Of a stretch of 64,000 bases of DNA, positions 21,755 to 42,249 are shown one piece after another. Below the pieces are notes generated by a model. That model was not told the origin of the DNA, did no database searches, and worked only from the letters and a program-made list of their open reading frames with translations. The DNA lies in contig NZ_AP029018.1 of the NCBI RefSeq assembly GCF_037076525.1, forward strand, positions 310,001 to 374,000. The letters run 5' to 3'. Source of the DNA: Selenomonas sp. TAMA-11512 (lineage in GTDB: Bacteria; Bacillota; Negativicutes; Selenomonadales; Selenomonadaceae). The translations under genes were made by a program, and so were the position numbers. Each line of letters opens with the position of its first letter. Within the stretch, counting starts at the first letter, position 1.

Positions 21755-23068
21755 ATGCAGATTGTGCTTTTGTCGGGCGGTTCGGGAAAGCGCCTATGGC
21801 CGCTGTCCAATGAGATACGCTCGAAGCAGTTCATTCCGATTTTCAAGCAGGTGGACGGCTCGTACCTTTCCATGGCGCAGCGCGTCTATCGACAGATACG
21901 GACGGCGCTGCCGGAGGCGCGGGTCACGGTCGCGACATCGAAATCCCAAGTGGCGGCACTGCGCCATCAGCTGGGCGATGATGTCCGCATATCGGTGGAG
22001 CCCTGCCGACGCGATACGTTTCCGGCGATCGTGCTCGTGAGCGCATACCTGAAGGATGTCTGCCGCGTTTCGGAAGAGGAGCCCATCGCGGTTTGCCCCG
22101 TCGATCCCTATGTGGAGGCGCACTATTTCCGTCAGGTGGGAGAGCTTGCGCGCATGGCGAAGGACGGCATGGGAAATCTTGCTCTGATGGGCATTGAGCC
22201 GACATATCCGAGCGCGAAATACGGATATATCGTCCCGCGCACAGGGGATCGCGTCGCGCAAGTGGATTCGTTCGTCGAAAAGCCGGATGAAAAACGTGCC
22301 GAGGAGCTTATTCAAAAAGGCGCGCTATGGAACAGCGGCGTCTTTGCCTATCGGCTGGGATATGTGCTGGAGACGGCGCATCGTCTGCTCCGGTTTTCCG
22401 GGTATGACGATCTCTATGCGAACTATGCCGAGCTTTCGAAGATCAGCTTCGACTATGCCGTTGCGGAAAAGGAGTCCGATATCTCCGTACTGCGCTATCG
22501 CGGCACGTGGAAGGACCTCGGGACGTGGAACACGTTCACGGAAATCATGGAAACGCCGAGCATCGGCGATGTGACCATGGATGAGGACTGCCGGAGCGTG
22601 CATGTCGTCAACGAGCTGGACGTGCCGCTCCTGTGCATGGGGCTGCAGGATATTGTCGTGGCGGCAAGTCCCGACGGGATTCTCGTCTCCGATAAGTCGC
22701 ATTCCAGCTATATCAAGCCGTACGTGGACGGGATGGACTCGCAGCTTCGCATCGCGGAGAAGAGCTGGGGAGAGTTTCGCGTCATTGATGTCGGGAATGA
22801 GAGCATGACGATCCGCGTCACGCTGCATCCGGGGCACGCGATGAATTATCACAGCCACACGCGGCGAAGCGAGGTGTGGACGGTCATCGAGGGACATGGG
22901 ACAGCGACGGTGGACGGCGTCGAACGCCGAATCCAAGCGGGAGACACTGTGGAGATACCCGTCGGCGCAAGGCATACGGTCTCCGCGGGAGAATGCACGC
23001 TGAAGCTCATCGAGGTGCAGGTGGGGAAGGATATCTCCGTAGAGGATAAAGTGAAGTGGCGGAGATAA
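21755..23068 (+). CDS. manC: mannose-1-phosphate guanylyltransferase (type II, with cupin domain)
   Basis: 437 residues. The N-terminus carries the nucleotidyltransferase loop LLSGGSGKRLWPLS and the sugar-binding FVEKPDEKRAEEL near residue 174. The C-terminal 110 residues form a cupin domain (NYHSHTRRSEVWTVIEGHG), the mannose-6-phosphate isomerase half in bifunctional members. Slightly shorter than bifunctional ManC/AlgA, so isomerase activity is uncertain; a separate ManA is encoded at 52715. The last 63 bases were copied to 25248, marking the edge of a duplication. Confidence 0.92.
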   Translation: MQIVLLSGGSGKRLWPLSNEIRSKQFIPIFKQVDGSYLSMAQRVYRQIRTALPEARVTVATSKSQVAALRHQLGDDVRISVEPCRRDTFPAIVLVSAYLKDVCRVSEEEPIAVCPVDPYVEAHYFRQVGELARMAKDGMGNLALMGIEPTYPSAKYGYIVPRTGDRVAQVDSFVEKPDEKRAEELIQKGALWNSGVFAYRLGYVLETAHRLLRFSGYDDLYANYAELSKISFDYAVAEKESDISVLRYRGTWKDLGTWNTFTEIMETPSIGDVTMDEDCRSVHVVNELDVPLLCMGLQDIVVAASPDGILVSDKSHSSYIKPYVDGMDSQLRIAEKSWGEFRVIDVGNESMTIRVTLHPGHAMNYHSHTRRSEVWTVIEGHGTATVDGVERRIQAGDTVEIPVGARHTVSAGECTLKLIEVQVGKDISVEDKVKWRR

Positions 23069-23080
23069 GGAAAGAATTTT

Positions 23081-23193
23081 ACCATGAAACCCCAAGAGGT
23101 CAAGCCGAAGGAGCAGACCGATTGGCCAGGTTTCTGTAAAGACGAGGCGCACAATGTCCGCAAAGCGGACGTTTGTGCGTGTAGCTTGCAACC
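23081..23193 (+). repeat. structured repeat, copy a
   Basis: Member of a dispersed family also at 25338, 34891 (reverse) and 42081 (reverse). A hairpin (about 23147-23180) has inner stem GTCCGC/GCGGAC with AAA loop and outer stem GCGCACAA/TTGTGCGT. An open frame of 37 codons from the ATG at 23084 runs through it and is kept in copy b, but there is no sign that it is a real protein. Confidence 0.75.
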
Positions 23194-23211
23194 GTAATGA
23201 GGTGATGATAG

Positions 23212-23320
23212 TGAAACTTTATAGATTTCTGTATGAAGTCTTTAGAAAAATAAACTTCTTTTTGGAAAAAATCTATGGCAGACTGCAAAAAGAGTATTGT
23301 CTTGTAGGAGATGGCAGCAG
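23212..23320 (+). pseudogene. 5' fragment of acetyltransferase A
   Basis: The first 37 codons of the gene at 25468 ([12 protein letters not shown] then [15 protein letters not shown]) end abruptly at 23320, and a different, full acetyltransferase starts at 23336. A truncated remnant left by the duplication or by recombination inside it. Confidence 0.85.
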
Positions 23321-23335
23321 TGCGAAGGGATGAAT

Positions 23336-23932
23336 ATGGAACTTTTATTATATAAATTGCTTAGAAAAATCTATTTTATGCTTGGGCGTGCGCATGATTG
23401 TTATAATAAGCAATTCTGTCTGGCAGGAGAGAAAGCAAAATTTTATCATTCATCCAAGGTTATCAATGTAACGGGTAAGAAAGAGAATATTCGCGTTGGG
23501 CAGAATTGCCATATTTATGGGGAATTGCTAATACAGTCTTATGGAGGTAGAATTGTTATTGGCGACGATTGCTTTGTCGGGCAAGGGACTAGAATTTGGT
23601 CGGAGAAAGAGATAAGAATTGGTAATCATGTGCTGATTTCACATAACGTTGATATTCATGACAGCAATGATCATCCATTAGATTCGACGGAGCGCCATCA
23701 ACAATTCATAAACATTGTGGAAAAGGGGGAACAGTCAGGATTTGATATAAAAAGAGGGGCTGTTTTGATTGAAGATGATGTATGGATTGGATTCGGTTCT
23801 TGCATCATGAAGGGGGTAACCATTGGAAAAGGAGCTGTTATTGCAGCACACAGCATTGTGACAAAAGATGTGCCGGCTTATACCGTGATGGGAAATCCGA
23901 CAGCCGACATACTGAAAAGAGAACTCTCGTAA
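23336..23932 (+). CDS. hexapeptide acyltransferase (copy A1)
   Basis: 198 residues from ATG 23336, with AAGGGA five bases upstream. Left-handed beta-helix repeats run from GQNCHIYGELL through GDDCFVGQGTRIWS and GNHVLISHNVDIHDSNDHPLD to GVTIGKGAVIAAHSIVTKDVPAYTVMGNP, the pattern of sugar O- or N-acetyltransferases. The histidine of HNVDIHD is the expected catalytic base region. AT-rich codons set it apart from manC. A related intact gene (A2, 25468) is about two thirds similar by eye. The acceptor sugar is unknown. Confidence 0.85.
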   Translation: MELLLYKLLRKIYFMLGRAHDCYNKQFCLAGEKAKFYHSSKVINVTGKKENIRVGQNCHIYGELLIQSYGGRIVIGDDCFVGQGTRIWSEKEIRIGNHVLISHNVDIHDSNDHPLDSTERHQQFINIVEKGEQSGFDIKRGAVLIEDDVWIGFGSCIMKGVTIGKGAVIAAHSIVTKDVPAYTVMGNPTADILKRELS

Positions 23933-23964
23933 GTCGACGAGATGCATAGAGAAAGAGGTGTGCC

Positions 23965-24598
23965 GTGCTATCATCGATGATCCGTTTTCTGAAAAAGCAT
24001 ATAGGATATAATATATATAGAGAGAACTCTCCAAGAAGCCTTATTTGATGGAGGCGGGAAAGGGGACGGTGCTTTTAGACGCTGTCCGTATACGTCAGGA
24101 TGATCCGATTGATACATGTAGAATTTTCCTTGGAGAAAACTCGGTGATTGGTGCATAATTTATTTTTGAATCCCGTGAAGGGAGTATCCATGTAGGTAGT
24201 CGAATCTATATAGGAGAATGGGTAAATCTGATTGCAAGGAGCCCGATCACGATAGGAGATGATGCGATCCCTGCTTGGGGAACAACGCTCTATAACCATG
24301 ACTCACACAGCAAGGATTGGAGAGCGCGATCAAAGATATTCAAGAGGCAAGAGAGAATATTCTTGTCGGACGAAAACAAGTGAACGGCAAGGACTGGGCC
24401 ACGGTTCAAAGCGCACCGATACGGATCGGCGATAAAGCGTGGATAGGGATGAATTCCTTGGTTTTAAAAGGCGTTACGATTGGCGAGGGTGCAATCATCG
24501 GCGCAGGATCTGTAGCAGCAAGTGATATTCCGTCTTGGACAGTGGCTGTCGGCAATCCAGCGCACGTTGTAAAAGAAATTCCCCATGAAGGAGAATAG
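23965..24598 (+). pseudogene. acetyltransferase B1, frameshifted
   Basis: Aligns along its whole length with the intact gene at 26115. The start (RFLKK.IGYNIYRE) is in frame, then two extra bases after the Arg-Glu codons shift it into an early stop, a second stop falls where the intact gene reads Cys-Asn-Phe (24151), and further changes break the middle. The last 93 codons ([28 protein letters not shown], from 24317) remain open but lack a start. No function expected. Confidence 0.9.
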
Positions 24599-24700
24599 AT
24601 GATGAAGTGTGCAATATGTCGGACGGAGATGAAGGACTTTGAGCGCAGAAGTCTTTTGGAGCAGGACTACACGGATATCAAGGGACAGCTGATCAAATAG
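24599..24700 (+). pseudogene. methyltransferase C1, internal deletion
   Basis: The first 14 codons (KCAICRTEMKDFER) and the last dozen (RSLLEQDYTDIKGQLIK) of the gene type seen at 26751-27515 are joined in frame, leaving a 33-34 codon open frame with two cysteines. The bulk, about 660 bases, is gone. It starts 1-4 bases after the acetyltransferase stop, as in the other copy. Confidence 0.8.
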
Positions 24701-24724
24701 GATACGATCATGGGAGGTGGGTTA

Positions 24725-25245
24725 AGGAATGTTTTATTTGTCATTATGACATGAAATGCGTCGATACAAAGAATCAAATGGTATCATTGTGGCTCATGTG
24801 GATTATATTCCGCAGGGATGAAGTCCGGGGAATCCGTTGCAGAAGAGGAGCTCATAGACTTCTTGGAGGCGCTGCGGCGAGGGAATTACCGTAAGATTAT
24901 GACGTGCCTGAAACACCACCTTCCGAAAGCCGGTGAAGTGCGAGGGTAGGATATTGGCTGCGCACGCGGATAGTTCGTATGGGGAGAAGATGGACGGAAT
25001 CGAGCCGGAGACGAAATTTTTTGAGCTTACCAAGCCTTGTGGAAATTATGTGGTGAAAGGGCTTTTTTCACAGGATTTCAATCCGCTGGAAGACAACGGC
25101 TCTCCTTAGGAAGTGTGATTTCATCATCTTCAATGATGTGCCGGAGCATATTCCTGATGTTGACAGGACAGTCCAAGCTTGCAGGACACTGTTAAAGCCT
25201 CGCGGACTATTGATTGTCAATTGTCCTGATAATCAGGGACATTAT
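24725..25245 (+). pseudogene. second methyltransferase (D), multiple frameshifts
   Basis: Pieces in different frames spell a class I SAM methyltransferase: a cysteine-rich start (CFICHYDMKCVDTKNQ), a SAM motif (DIGCAHA), GIEPETKFFELTK, a DFIIFNDVPEHIPDVDRT post-motif and LLKPRGLLIVNCPDNQGHYF. Stops and frame changes separate them (for example a stop before DIGCAHA and another after NGSP). The reading is by eye. It is absent from the second half of the duplication, which ends in this gene at 25248. Confidence 0.75.
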
Positions 25246-25247
25246 TT

Positions 25248-25577
25248 CACGCTGAAGCTCATCGAGGTACAGGTGGGGAAGGATATCTCCGTAGAAGACA
25301 AGGTGAAGTGAACGAGCCTGTGAAAGGAAAGAATTTTACCATGAAACCCCAAGAGGTCAAGCCGAAGGAGCAGACCGATTGGCCAGGTTTCTGTAAAGAC
25401 GAGGTGCACAATGTCCGCAAAGCGGACGTTTGTGCGTGTAGCTTACAATCGTAATGAGGTGATGATAGTGAAACTTTATAGATTTCTGTATGAAGTCTTT
25501 AGAAAAATGAACTTCTTTTTGGGAAAAATCTATGGCAGATTGCAAAAAGAGTATTGTCTTGTAGGAGATAGCAGCAG
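25248..25577 (+). repeat. long direct repeat, copy 2
   Basis: Matches 22996-23320. The first 63 bases are the manC tail without the gene in front, followed by an intergenic stretch and the start of acetyltransferase A2. The junction with the methyltransferase relic at about 25248 is the duplication endpoint. Confidence 0.9.
25338..25450 (+). repeat. structured repeat, copy b
   Basis: Same element as copy a with only a few substitutions. Inner stem 25413-25427 (GTCCGC/AAA/GCGGAC). It lies 18 bases before the start of acetyltransferase A2. Confidence 0.75.
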
Positions 25578-26058
25578 GTTTTATTCCTCATCGGTTGTGC
25601 ACAATCTGTCTGGAGAAAAAGAGAATATCTGTCTCGGTCGGAATTGTCATGTGCGCGGTGAATTGCTCGTCTTTCCATATGACGGAAAAATTTCCATCGG
25701 GGATGATTGCTATATTGGTGAAGGGACGCGTATTTGGTCTGAAAAGAGCATTCGGATCGGAAATCATGTGTTGCTGGCACACAATGTGGATATTCACGAT
25801 TGCAACGATCATCCGGTGGATGCAGAGGAGCGTCATCGTCATTTTCAAACCATCGTAACAAAAGGTTTTTCTCAAGATTTTGACCTGAAGGGGAGAGGAG
25901 TAACCATTGAAGACGACGTGTGGGTCGGTTTTGGCGCGTGCATTATGAAAGGCGTCACCATAGGCAGAGGAGCGATTGTCGCAGCGCATGCGGTTGTAAC
26001 AAAGGATGTGCCTCCATATGCGGTCGTTGGCGGAAACCCAGCGCAGAAAATCAAATAG
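25468..26058 (+). CDS. hexapeptide acyltransferase (copy A2)
   Basis: 196 residues. The GTG at 25468 is preferred because GAGGTGA lies just upstream at the right distance; the ATG at 25462 is too close to that site. Beta-helix repeats as in A1: [87 protein letters not shown]. Related to CysE/WbbJ-type sugar acetyltransferases. The second copy of the cassette begins here. The acceptor is unknown. Confidence 0.88.
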
Positions 26059-34890: not shown

Positions 34891-34991
34891 AGAGCTGCGC
34901 GTACGAGCCCCCTTGCAGGGGCTTGTGTGCACGCCTCCACGAAGCTGCCGAGAGGGCTTTGCCTTCCGGCTTGACCTCTTAGCGTTTCATA
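34891..34991 (-). repeat. structured repeat, copy c (reverse)
   Basis: On the minus strand this matches copies a and b: a segment reading TGAAACGCTAAGAGGTCAAG at one end, GAGGCGTGCACACAAG further in, and a hairpin AGCCCC/GGGGCT. The stem sequence differs from copies a and b yet pairs. It abuts the ribosome site of tpiA (GAAAGGAG). The rest of the pgk-tpiA gap (34814-34890) holds a small GGAGA/TCTCC hairpin. Confidence 0.65.
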
Positions 34992-35009
34992 CGAAAGGAG
35001 TTTTGTACT

Positions 35010-35762
35010 ATGTCAAGAACCCCGATCATCGCCGGCAACTGGAAAATGAACAATACGATTGCACAGGGCAAGGCGCTCGTCGAGGCGCTCATCCCGCTCG
35101 TCAAGGATGCTTCCGGTGTCGACGTCGTCGTTTGCCCGACGGCAACGGCTCTTTCCGCTGTTTCCGCCGTCGCTTCCGGCACGAACATCCATGTCGGTGC
35201 GCAGAACGTGCACTGGGAGAAGAGCGGCGCTTTCACGGGTGAAATATCGACGGATATGCTCAAGGAGATCGGTGTCGAATATGTCGTCCTCGGTCACTCC
35301 GAGCGCCGTGACTACTTCGGCGAGACGGACGAGGGCGTCAATAAGCGTGCGAAGGCGGCGTATGCCGCGGGCATCACGCCGATTATCTGCTGCGGCGAAT
35401 CACTCGACGTGCGCGAGTCCGGCAAGTACATCGACCATGTCGTCAACCAGGTCAAGCTTGCGCTGGACGGATTCTCCGCCGATGAAGTCGCGAAGCTCGT
35501 CATCGCTTACGAGCCGATCTGGGCGATCGGCACGGGCAAGACGGCTACGTTTGAGCAGGCGGAAGAAGTCTGCAAGGCAATCCGCGAAGCGGTCGCCGAG
35601 AAGTTCAATCCGGCGGCGGCGGACGCTGTCCGCATCCAGTACGGCGGCAGCGTGAAGCCGGCGACGATCAAGGACCTCATGGCACAGCCGAACGTCGACG
35701 GCGCGCTCGTCGGCGGTGCGGCGCTCAAGGCGGACGATTTCGCCGCGATTGTTAAGTTTTGA
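35010..35762 (+). CDS. tpiA: triosephosphate isomerase
   Basis: 250 residues. PIIAGNWKMNNT (substrate-binding Lys), GHSERRDYFGE (catalytic His) and YEPIWAIGTGKTAT (catalytic Glu) are present, then GGSVKPAT and GALVGGAAL. Interconverts dihydroxyacetone phosphate and glyceraldehyde-3-phosphate. AAGGAG lies eleven bases before the ATG. Confidence 0.97.
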   Translation: MSRTPIIAGNWKMNNTIAQGKALVEALIPLVKDASGVDVVVCPTATALSAVSAVASGTNIHVGAQNVHWEKSGAFTGEISTDMLKEIGVEYVVLGHSERRDYFGETDEGVNKRAKAAYAAGITPIICCGESLDVRESGKYIDHVVNQVKLALDGFSADEVAKLVIAYEPIWAIGTGKTATFEQAEEVCKAIREAVAEKFNPAAADAVRIQYGGSVKPATIKDLMAQPNVDGALVGGAALKADDFAAIVKF

Positions 35763-40350: not shown

Positions 40351-42060
40351 TTAGTCCAATACCTTTTGCAGGTACGTTTTGATTTCATCGCCGTCTTCCA
40401 GCTTCATCACGTCGGCGAGGATTTCCTTTGCCTGCGTGGAGGAGACGGAGCGGAGCTTTTCCTTGACGCGCGGAATGGACGGAGCGCTCATGGAGAGCTC
40501 GCTGAGGCCCATTGCCATCAGGATGACGGCTGCGTACGGGTCGGATGCCATCTCGCCGCACATGCCGCACCAGATGCCGTGCTCCTTCGCCGCCGTCGCC
40601 GTGCGCTGGATGAGCGTCAGGACAGCGGGATTGAAGTGGTTGTAGAGGTGCGCGATGGAGCTGTTGCCGCGGTCAACGGCAAGCGTGTACTGGACGAGAT
40701 CGTTCGTGCCGATGGAGAAGAAGTCGACATACTTCGCGAGTACCGGCGTCATGACGGCAGCGGCCGGCGTCTCGACCATGATGCCGAGCTGGACGCTGTC
40801 GGAATAAGCTTTTCCCTCGTGCGAGAGTTCCAGCTTTGCCTCCTCGACGATTTGCCGGACAGCCTTGAACTCGGAGACGTTGATGATCATGGGAATCATG
40901 ATCGCCGCCTTGCCGAAGACGCCTGCGCGGAGGATCGCTTTGATCTGCGGGAGGAAGAGATCTTTGCGCTCCAGGCTGATACGGACAGCGCGATAGCCGA
41001 GGAACGGATTCTCTTCGGGCGGGATATTAAGGTACGGCAGCGGCTTGTCACCGCCGATATCCATCGTGCGGATGACGCAGAGCTTGCCTTGACACTTTTC
41101 GATGGCTTCCTTGTAGGCTTTAAACTGGTCGTCTTCGTTGGGGATGCTCGAGCTGCCCATGAAGACGAACTCGGAGCGGAAGAGGCCGACGCCCTCGGCA
41201 CCGTATGTCAGCGCGGCATCGACGTCGTTGTGGCTGCCGATGTTTGCCATGAGCTCCGTTTTGACACCGTCCGTCGTGATGGCGGGGAGAGGAGCGAGCT
41301 GTGCATAGTATGCCTTGAGCTCGTCCTGTTTCTTGATCTTCTCACGGTAATCCGCAAGCTGCGTCTCGTCCGGGCGAATCACGATATCGCCGCGCTCGCC
41401 GTCGACGATGACCTGTCCTCCATCCGGGATCTCCTTGATCTTATCGCCAAGACCGACAACGGTCGGAATGGCGCGCGCCTTTGCAATGATGACGGCATGG
41501 CTCGTCGTGGAGCCGAGGCCGAGGATGACGCCCGCGATTTTCTCGGTGGGGAGGCTGGCGATGACGGACGGCTCGATCTCTTCACCGCAGAGGATGACGG
41601 GCGCGTCGCCGATCTCCGGCTCCTTGACGCCGAGGATATACTTGGCGATGCGCTTGCCGACGTCGCGAATATCCGTCGCGCGCTCGCGGAAGTACGGATC
41701 ATCCATGCCCTCAAAGATAGCGGCGGATTCCTTCGCGGCTTCCAGGATCGCGTGAGGCGCGGAGCCTGTCGTTTCAAGCTTTGCCGCCATGTTTTCCGCC
41801 ATGGCGGGATCCTGCGCGAGCATGCGGTGCGCCTCAAGGATGGCTGCCTGCTCAGCCATATCCTTTTCCTGCAGCGTCTTGATGTTCGTCTGCAGGACGC
41901 TGACGACTGCCTGCACGGCATCCTTGATCTTTTGGTTTTCAATATCCTTATTACCGGGCTGATAGCCGGCGAGATAACCGTCGATGTTCTGTCCCGCCAT
42001 CATGATGTTCCCGATCGCAATGCCGGCAATGACACCTTTACCGCGGATTTGCTCTGCCAT
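40351..42060 (-). CDS. ptsI: PTS enzyme I (phosphoenolpyruvate-protein phosphotransferase)
   Basis: 569 residues. The active-site histidine lies at about position 188 (GLGSTTSHAVIIAKA). The C-terminal PEP-binding barrel has GAEGVGLFRSEFVFM, RTMDIGGDKPLPY, MVETPAAAVM, FSIGTNDLVQYTLAVDRGN and CGMCGEMASDP. Passes phosphate from PEP to HPr. The gene for HPr lies just upstream on the same strand, separated by a terminator and a structured repeat. The long ORF on the opposite strand is an artefact of codon bias. Confidence 0.97.
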   Translation of the reverse strand: MAEQIRGKGVIAGIAIGNIMMAGQNIDGYLAGYQPGNKDIENQKIKDAVQAVVSVLQTNIKTLQEKDMAEQAAILEAHRMLAQDPAMAENMAAKLETTGSAPHAILEAAKESAAIFEGMDDPYFRERATDIRDVGKRIAKYILGVKEPEIGDAPVILCGEEIEPSVIASLPTEKIAGVILGLGSTTSHAVIIAKARAIPTVVGLGDKIKEIPDGGQVIVDGERGDIVIRPDETQLADYREKIKKQDELKAYYAQLAPLPAITTDGVKTELMANIGSHNDVDAALTYGAEGVGLFRSEFVFMGSSSIPNEDDQFKAYKEAIEKCQGKLCVIRTMDIGGDKPLPYLNIPPEENPFLGYRAVRISLERKDLFLPQIKAILRAGVFGKAAIMIPMIINVSEFKAVRQIVEEAKLELSHEGKAYSDSVQLGIMVETPAAAVMTPVLAKYVDFFSIGTNDLVQYTLAVDRGNSSIAHLYNHFNPAVLTLIQRTATAAKEHGIWCGMCGEMASDPYAAVILMAMGLSELSMSAPSIPRVKEKLRSVSSTQAKEILADVMKLEDGDEIKTYLQKVLD

Positions 42061-42080: not shown

Positions 42081-42160
42081 GACAACTGCACGCACAAGCG
42101 TCCGTCCCGCGGGCACTGTGCGCCGAAATTTACAAAACCGCCGATACGTCTGCTGCGTCC
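42081..42160 (-). repeat. structured repeat, copy d (reverse)
   Basis: On the minus strand this matches copies a and b (GCAGACG..TTTTGTAAA..GCGCACAG..TTGTGCGTGCAG) and forms a hairpin 30 bases before the ptsI start codon, in the same relation to its gene as copy b has to acetyltransferase A2. The stem bases differ from a/b but pair, with one mismatch. Confidence 0.7.
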
Positions 42161-42249
42161 GATGGACGGATCGGGCCTTTGTAAGAAATACGTTGGACAA
42201 CCATACTACCGCTATAATTATAATATATTTTCCGTGTTTTGCCCACAAA

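Follow-up and report, generated by a model that had tools for sequence, protein, structure and literature searches.

Within a 64,000-nucleotide stretch of the Selenomonas sp. TAMA-11512 genome (the window), four similar segments occur, one in the leader of ptsI and one in the gap between pgk and tpiA, which raises the question of whether they belong to the control of these genes or are copies of something that moves. An earlier note, based on the letters of the window, had described an 80-110 base element with a long hairpin and had suggested either a REP-like mobile repeat or a regulatory RNA. The segments were analyzed with a covariance model (R2, 30 pairs, replacing an earlier model R1 of 14 pairs), which was built from 11 copies of the same genome, including copies a and b and excluding copies c and d. 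All four copies were found by R2, c and d without having contributed to the model, and the window thus holds four copies of one repeat family, two intact (a and b) and two decayed (c and d) (Table 1). The unit is about 107 nt long (range 93-109 bp) and contains two hairpins in a fixed order and not one; the extent formerly assigned to copy d (42081-42160) omits hairpin 1. The inner stems, GTCCGC/GCGGAC in a and b and AGCCCC/GGGGCT in c, are as had been described. Copies a and b sit in a duplicated stretch (window positions 22900-25600), together with hexapeptide-transferase genes and decayed pieces of other genes.

Table 1. Positions in the window of the repeat copies, their parts and the neighbouring features.
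Feature	Position	Strand	Remarks
Copy a, complete 107-bp element	23081..23187	+	preceded by TTTT; R2 131.8 bits; fold z -5.2
Copy a, hairpin 1	23085..23135	+	core CCAAGA GGTC AAG CC..GG GCAGACC GATTGG; R3 55.2 bits
Copy a, linker between hairpins, putative guide	23136..23146	+	TGTAAAGACGA; guide role proposed from single-strand folds
Copy a, hairpin 2	23147..23180	+	GCGCACAATGTCCGC AAA GCGGACGTTTGTGCGT
Copy b, complete element	25338..25444	+	R2 128.9 bits; 98% identical to a; fold z -4.2
Copy b, hairpin 1	25342..25392	+	R3 55.2 bits
Copy b, hairpin 2	25404..25437	+	offset as in copy a
Copy c, diverged, pgk-tpiA gap	34892..34993	-	R2 25.7 bits; R3 14.3 bits, E 0.078
tpiA	35010..35762	+	PF00121
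ptsI (PTS enzyme I)	40351..42060	-	PF02896, PF05524, PF00391
Copy d, diverged, ptsI leader	42083..42185	-	R2 41.7 bits; no R3 match
Promoter-like site TGGGCA-17-TATAAT, upstream of copy d and ptsI	42217..42245	-	10/12 matches

Because the E-values in the R2 search of the whole 2.59-Mb genome were 2.9e-6 for copy d and 0.016 for copy c, d is a secure and c a probable member of the family. Counted from the R2 alignment, about 24 of the 30 model pairs are kept in d and about 21 in c. Copy d folds barely better than its shuffled versions (z = -0.77), is without the conserved tandem G.A core and gave no match to the hairpin-1 model (R3). Both c and d are relics of old insertions now in decay.

The complete unit begins with the left end A/G-C-Y-ATG, which is followed by hairpin 1, a linker (family consensus TGTAAGGGCG), hairpin 2 and the right end AG-Y-TT. 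Hairpin 1 is laid out as CCAA-GA-NNNC, AA, an apical GCC/GGC stem, GCA and GNNN-GA-TTGG; its core reads CCAAGA...CAAG...CGCAG...GATTGG and contains two internal loops, one with GA opposite GA and the other AA/GCA. In an alignment of 17 selected sequences the unpaired letters of hairpin 1 are invariant and the stems covary, a covariation count that is partly circular because some rows were chosen for pairing. An independent test, for which sequences were picked by the core pattern only, revealed that the outer stem forms 5.79 of 7 pairs, compared with 4.13 +/- 0.18 when the arms were exchanged between sequences (0 of 2000 permutations). The sequence of hairpin 2 differs completely among genera, yet it stays paired (38 double-change cells, while shuffling gave 13.9 +/- 4.3; 0 of 500 shuffles), and its pairing dropped from 96.6% to 24-34% when the partner was slid by one column; the rows for this hairpin were drawn from R2, which scores pairing, and thus lean towards structure. 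Both hairpins are kept by compensatory change, and the core of hairpin 1 is invariant and non-Watson-Crick. The earlier view that the bases change while the pairing stays therefore holds for the family and for both hairpins, beyond chance in the shuffle and permutation tests, whereas in c and d themselves the pairing has partly decayed, and true compensatory change is a feature of the family and not of these four copies. The element has no match above the gathering score in Rfam.

The search of this and related genomes that the earlier note had proposed revealed about 20-30 copies in the own genome (approximately 23 matches at E < 0.02 with R2 across 2.59 Mb) and R2 matches in 37 of 150 related genomes; among the matches listed, all came from the same family, whose carriers include Mitsuokella and Selenomonas MAGs. 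Related Selenomonadaceae carry up to 47 copies, many of them identical. Genome G043 has 47 matches, and about 20 of these are 98-100% identical; in G017, which belongs to the same genus, there are two fragments. Exact head-to-tail tandem units were detected in G029, G048, G051 and G043. In the own genome, the site CCGGTTT/GCCTCC is present both with and without the 107 bp, and further empty sites were identified by comparing G043 with G060 and G051 with G029. The element spreads to new sites and is mobile. No copy in G043 encloses a gene between its halves, and no match to the element was obtained from plasmid, phage and viral collections.

Other repeats were met beside the copies. At own-genome loci L029, L031-L033, L035, L050, L055 and L057, a second repeat was detected whose inverted ends are GGAAGCRCTGATAAA...TTTATCAGCGCTTCC; several of its copies enclose the two-hairpin element, L050 is without it, and shorter versions exist. 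At locus L139 (G029:C1 near 1181400), an IS200 element is inserted at the right end of a repeat copy.

After removal of near-identical flanks, 125 independent insertions were available, and TTT stood directly 5' of the element in 100 of them (the background in the same flanks is 3.6%). The unit is inserted in a single orientation immediately 3' of a T-run (consensus YTTT), and its ends are fixed. Among 26 elements with a terminal CTT, just one has CTT as its flank; the T's at the end therefore do not reflect duplication of a TTT target, and the empty sites likewise show clean insertion without such a duplication. A DDE-type MITE was rejected as a model, since the element's ends, ACYATG and AGYTT, do not form inverted repeats and TTT is not duplicated. 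A preference for terminators beyond their T-runs was also considered, but the numbers of hairpins before the T-run (38/125 in left flanks and 28/125 in right flanks) are not convincing. The T-run preference leads to placement downstream of terminators, whose T-tracts lie in the sense orientation, and to the reverse placement of copy c at the tpiA ribosome site, where it adjoins CTCCTTT, the complement of the tpiA Shine-Dalgarno sequence. Copies came to lie beside ptsI and tpiA as a side effect of this insertion preference.

A different account would make the element a cis-regulatory leader RNA that controls ptsI, tpiA and other downstream genes, in line with its conserved pairing and with the position of copy d, which lies in the sense direction between the promoter-like site and ptsI, 22 bases from the start codon. 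Several old copies in the own genome also precede pfkA, pflA, rimO, ribD and folE in the sense direction (gene names assigned by eye). As the promoter-like site stands upstream (two such sites in the region, compared with 0.6 in shuffles), copy d is probably transcribed into the ptsI leader, and an accidental effect on ptsI is possible. However, among 30 orthologous ptsI loci the element is present only in the own genome, and among 30 tpiA loci one other genome (G029) has a separate, weak copy in the opposite orientation, so that a cis-regulatory RNA conserved at these orthologues was not found. An upstream bias was not confirmed, as copies in related genomes lie between genes in all arrangements (11 >/>, 11 </<, 10 </> and 4 >/<, by heuristic gene calls), and copy d is without the conserved core. 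Control of downstream genes by the element is thus very unlikely, and any effect of copies c and d on ptsI or tpiA is incidental. Of the two alternatives of the earlier note, the mobile repeat is borne out by dispersal, recent amplification, empty sites, tandems and target preference, while a conserved function at ptsI and tpiA is not. At locus L056:1686-1810, an FMN riboswitch (113 bits) precedes a weak copy of the element, and a ribD-like gene comes next.

The element is best described as a mobile repeat, small and non-autonomous, whose structure and target rule are well supported. Probably, this structured unit with its fixed ends and T-run insertion is moved in trans by a putative enzyme that recognises hairpin 1. 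Such an enzyme would read hairpin 1 as a folded single strand, more likely of DNA than of RNA, and, in the manner of IS200/IS605 transposases, would cut at two places, the T-run and the right end, and join the unit to another T-run.

By mode of insertion, the closest known systems are the IS200/IS605 ends and their non-autonomous derivatives (palindrome-associated elements), which have subterminal hairpins, strand-specific insertion 3' of a T-rich site and no duplication. The repeat could be a miniature derivative of this family, with most carriers having lost the autonomous parent and its transposase, a possible but doubtful origin. Its outline anatomy, including the fixed polarity, speaks for such a descent; on the other hand, no parent with these ends was found, the IS200 elements that are present end differently, and G043 has about 20 near-identical copies without any Y1 gene. 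PF01797 (Y1) was not found in the closed genome G051, nor in G043, G048, G060, G025, G026 and G049, a set of carriers that, G051 aside, partly consists of drafts, which could miss a gene. As the carriers gave no Y1 gene with these ends, the element was not assigned to IS200/IS605. Besides the lack of a Y1 transposase in several copy-rich carriers, the element differs from IS200/IS605 in the invariant tandem G.A and AA/GCA core of its hairpin 1, and from IS608 in that its proposed guide lies between the hairpins, while the guides of IS608 lie 5' of each hairpin.

A repeat of the REP/BIME type, moved by a RAYT (REP-associated tyrosine transposase), would likewise be dispersed, intergenic, palindromic and high in copy number. 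RAYTs act on ssDNA hairpins, and the right foot of the element is GTAG in several genomes. This foot is not conserved, though (GGAG, GAAG and TGAG occur elsewhere), and several copy-rich genomes are without a Y1 gene, which contradicts the model in the closed G051. RAYT was rejected as the helper, as the search for PF01797 in the own and 14 related genomes gave only IS200/IS605-type genes, with ends different from those of the element; in the own genome PF01797 occurs only in such IS200-type elements. REPs are single palindromes of 20-40 bp (PMC3733652), often in pairs of opposite orientation and with a GTAG (or CGTC) foot, whereas the element, at roughly 107 nt, has two hairpins in fixed order, is unidirectional, forms head-to-tail tandems and varies in its foot tetranucleotide. 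What remains of the name REP-like is the mobile repeat and not a strict REP, for which the unit is too long, its two hairpins are read one way and a RAYT-type gene is missing from copy-rich genomes; a RAYT as the mover is a very remote prospect.

The conserved RNA-like fold, the T-run targets and the pairing of linker and flank, which resembles exon recognition, would also suit a retro-mobile RNA, which might be SINE-like or might be mobilised in trans, by a group II intron or a different reverse transcriptase. PF00078 was not found in nine element-bearing genomes (G000, G003, G025, G043, G048, G051, G060, G087 and G088), by which a reverse transcriptase was rejected as helper, and this route is quite improbable. 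An Rpn-type nuclease (PF12784) is present in 6 of 6 element-rich genomes (G000, G029, G043, G048, G051 and G060) and in 0 of 3 element-poor ones (G008, G010 and G017). It was rejected as helper, being beside the element at only one place among the loci examined, and its co-occurrence is probably coincidence. No gene family recurring beside the copies was found; the matches were mainly to the element's own translation.

With movement by a hairpin-1-recognising enzyme as the preferred reading, the linker may have a part in the choice of site. In single-strand folds, GTAAG of the linker pairs with the target flank together with the first two bases of the element (TTTAC), and GGGC pairs with the right end GYTT. 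With T in the guide, the pre-insertion +1 base is A in 24 of 52 insertions; with C in the guide, it is A in 1 of 29 (P-value = 3e-5, Fisher test, uncorrected for lineage). The guide letter is confounded with lineage, most C-guide copies coming from G043, and the +1 effect could be a lineage bias. For the right-end pairing, covariation was not significant (P-value = 0.25). These results are suggestive, and less firmly than the recognition of hairpin 1, of a linker GTAAGGGC that helps to choose the site by pairing with YYTTT/AC.

The core sequence occurred in none of the papers searched, among which related repeat families were found. The bcr1-bcr18 repeats of Bacillus cereus are intergenic, mobile, 100-400 bp long and associated with a TTTAT motif, with an unknown helper and a range restricted to the B. 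cereus group (PMC6542083); compared by description and not by sequence, they resemble the element in scale, intergenic position and mobility and differ in range. RUP of Streptococcus pneumoniae (107 bp; PMC2229807) is alike in size, intergenic position and non-autonomy but differs from the element in its terminal inverted repeats and in its TA target sites, which match IS630-Spn1.

The core pattern of hairpin 1 also occurs outside the family, in Clostridia, Ruminococcus, Lachnospiraceae and Clostridiaceae MAGs and in one Chloroflexi MAG, where it is combined with unrelated outer stems and different second parts. Of 398 genomes sampled from the phylum, 12 were matched by the hairpin-1 model, with as many as 11 matches in a single genus outside the family. 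This distribution suggests that the lineages share a recognition factor or that transfer has taken place between them. A bolder reading would unite these occurrences as a mobile class of Bacillota and Chloroflexota, in which an invariant folded hairpin core is read by an enzyme that has not been described and belongs to neither the Y1 nor the reverse transcriptase class, an internal guide pairs across the target junction and the outer stems are freely exchanged; we regard it as unlikely. In the Clostridia, hairpin-1 cores stand in tandem arrays or composite repeats with different accompanying hairpins (L429, L437, L438 and L444 of G496 and G532, L315 and L363). The core of the Chloroflexi MAG (JACRBL01) is contained in a 260-nt region with a long closing stem (L299:5110-5370; -164 kcal/mol, z = -11), and ParB-like and ParA-like reading frames were seen nearby by eye.

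The members of the family are small structured mobile elements in which a conserved structure, clean empty sites and a target rule can all be seen, while the usual helpers (RAYT, IS200 transposase and reverse transcriptase) are missing from several carriers. Identifying the mover would be a test of whether single strands with hairpins are handled by a further class of enzyme. Moreover, a covarying structured motif before a gene need not be a riboregulator: T-run targeting by itself brings such elements to positions after terminators and beside Shine-Dalgarno sites.
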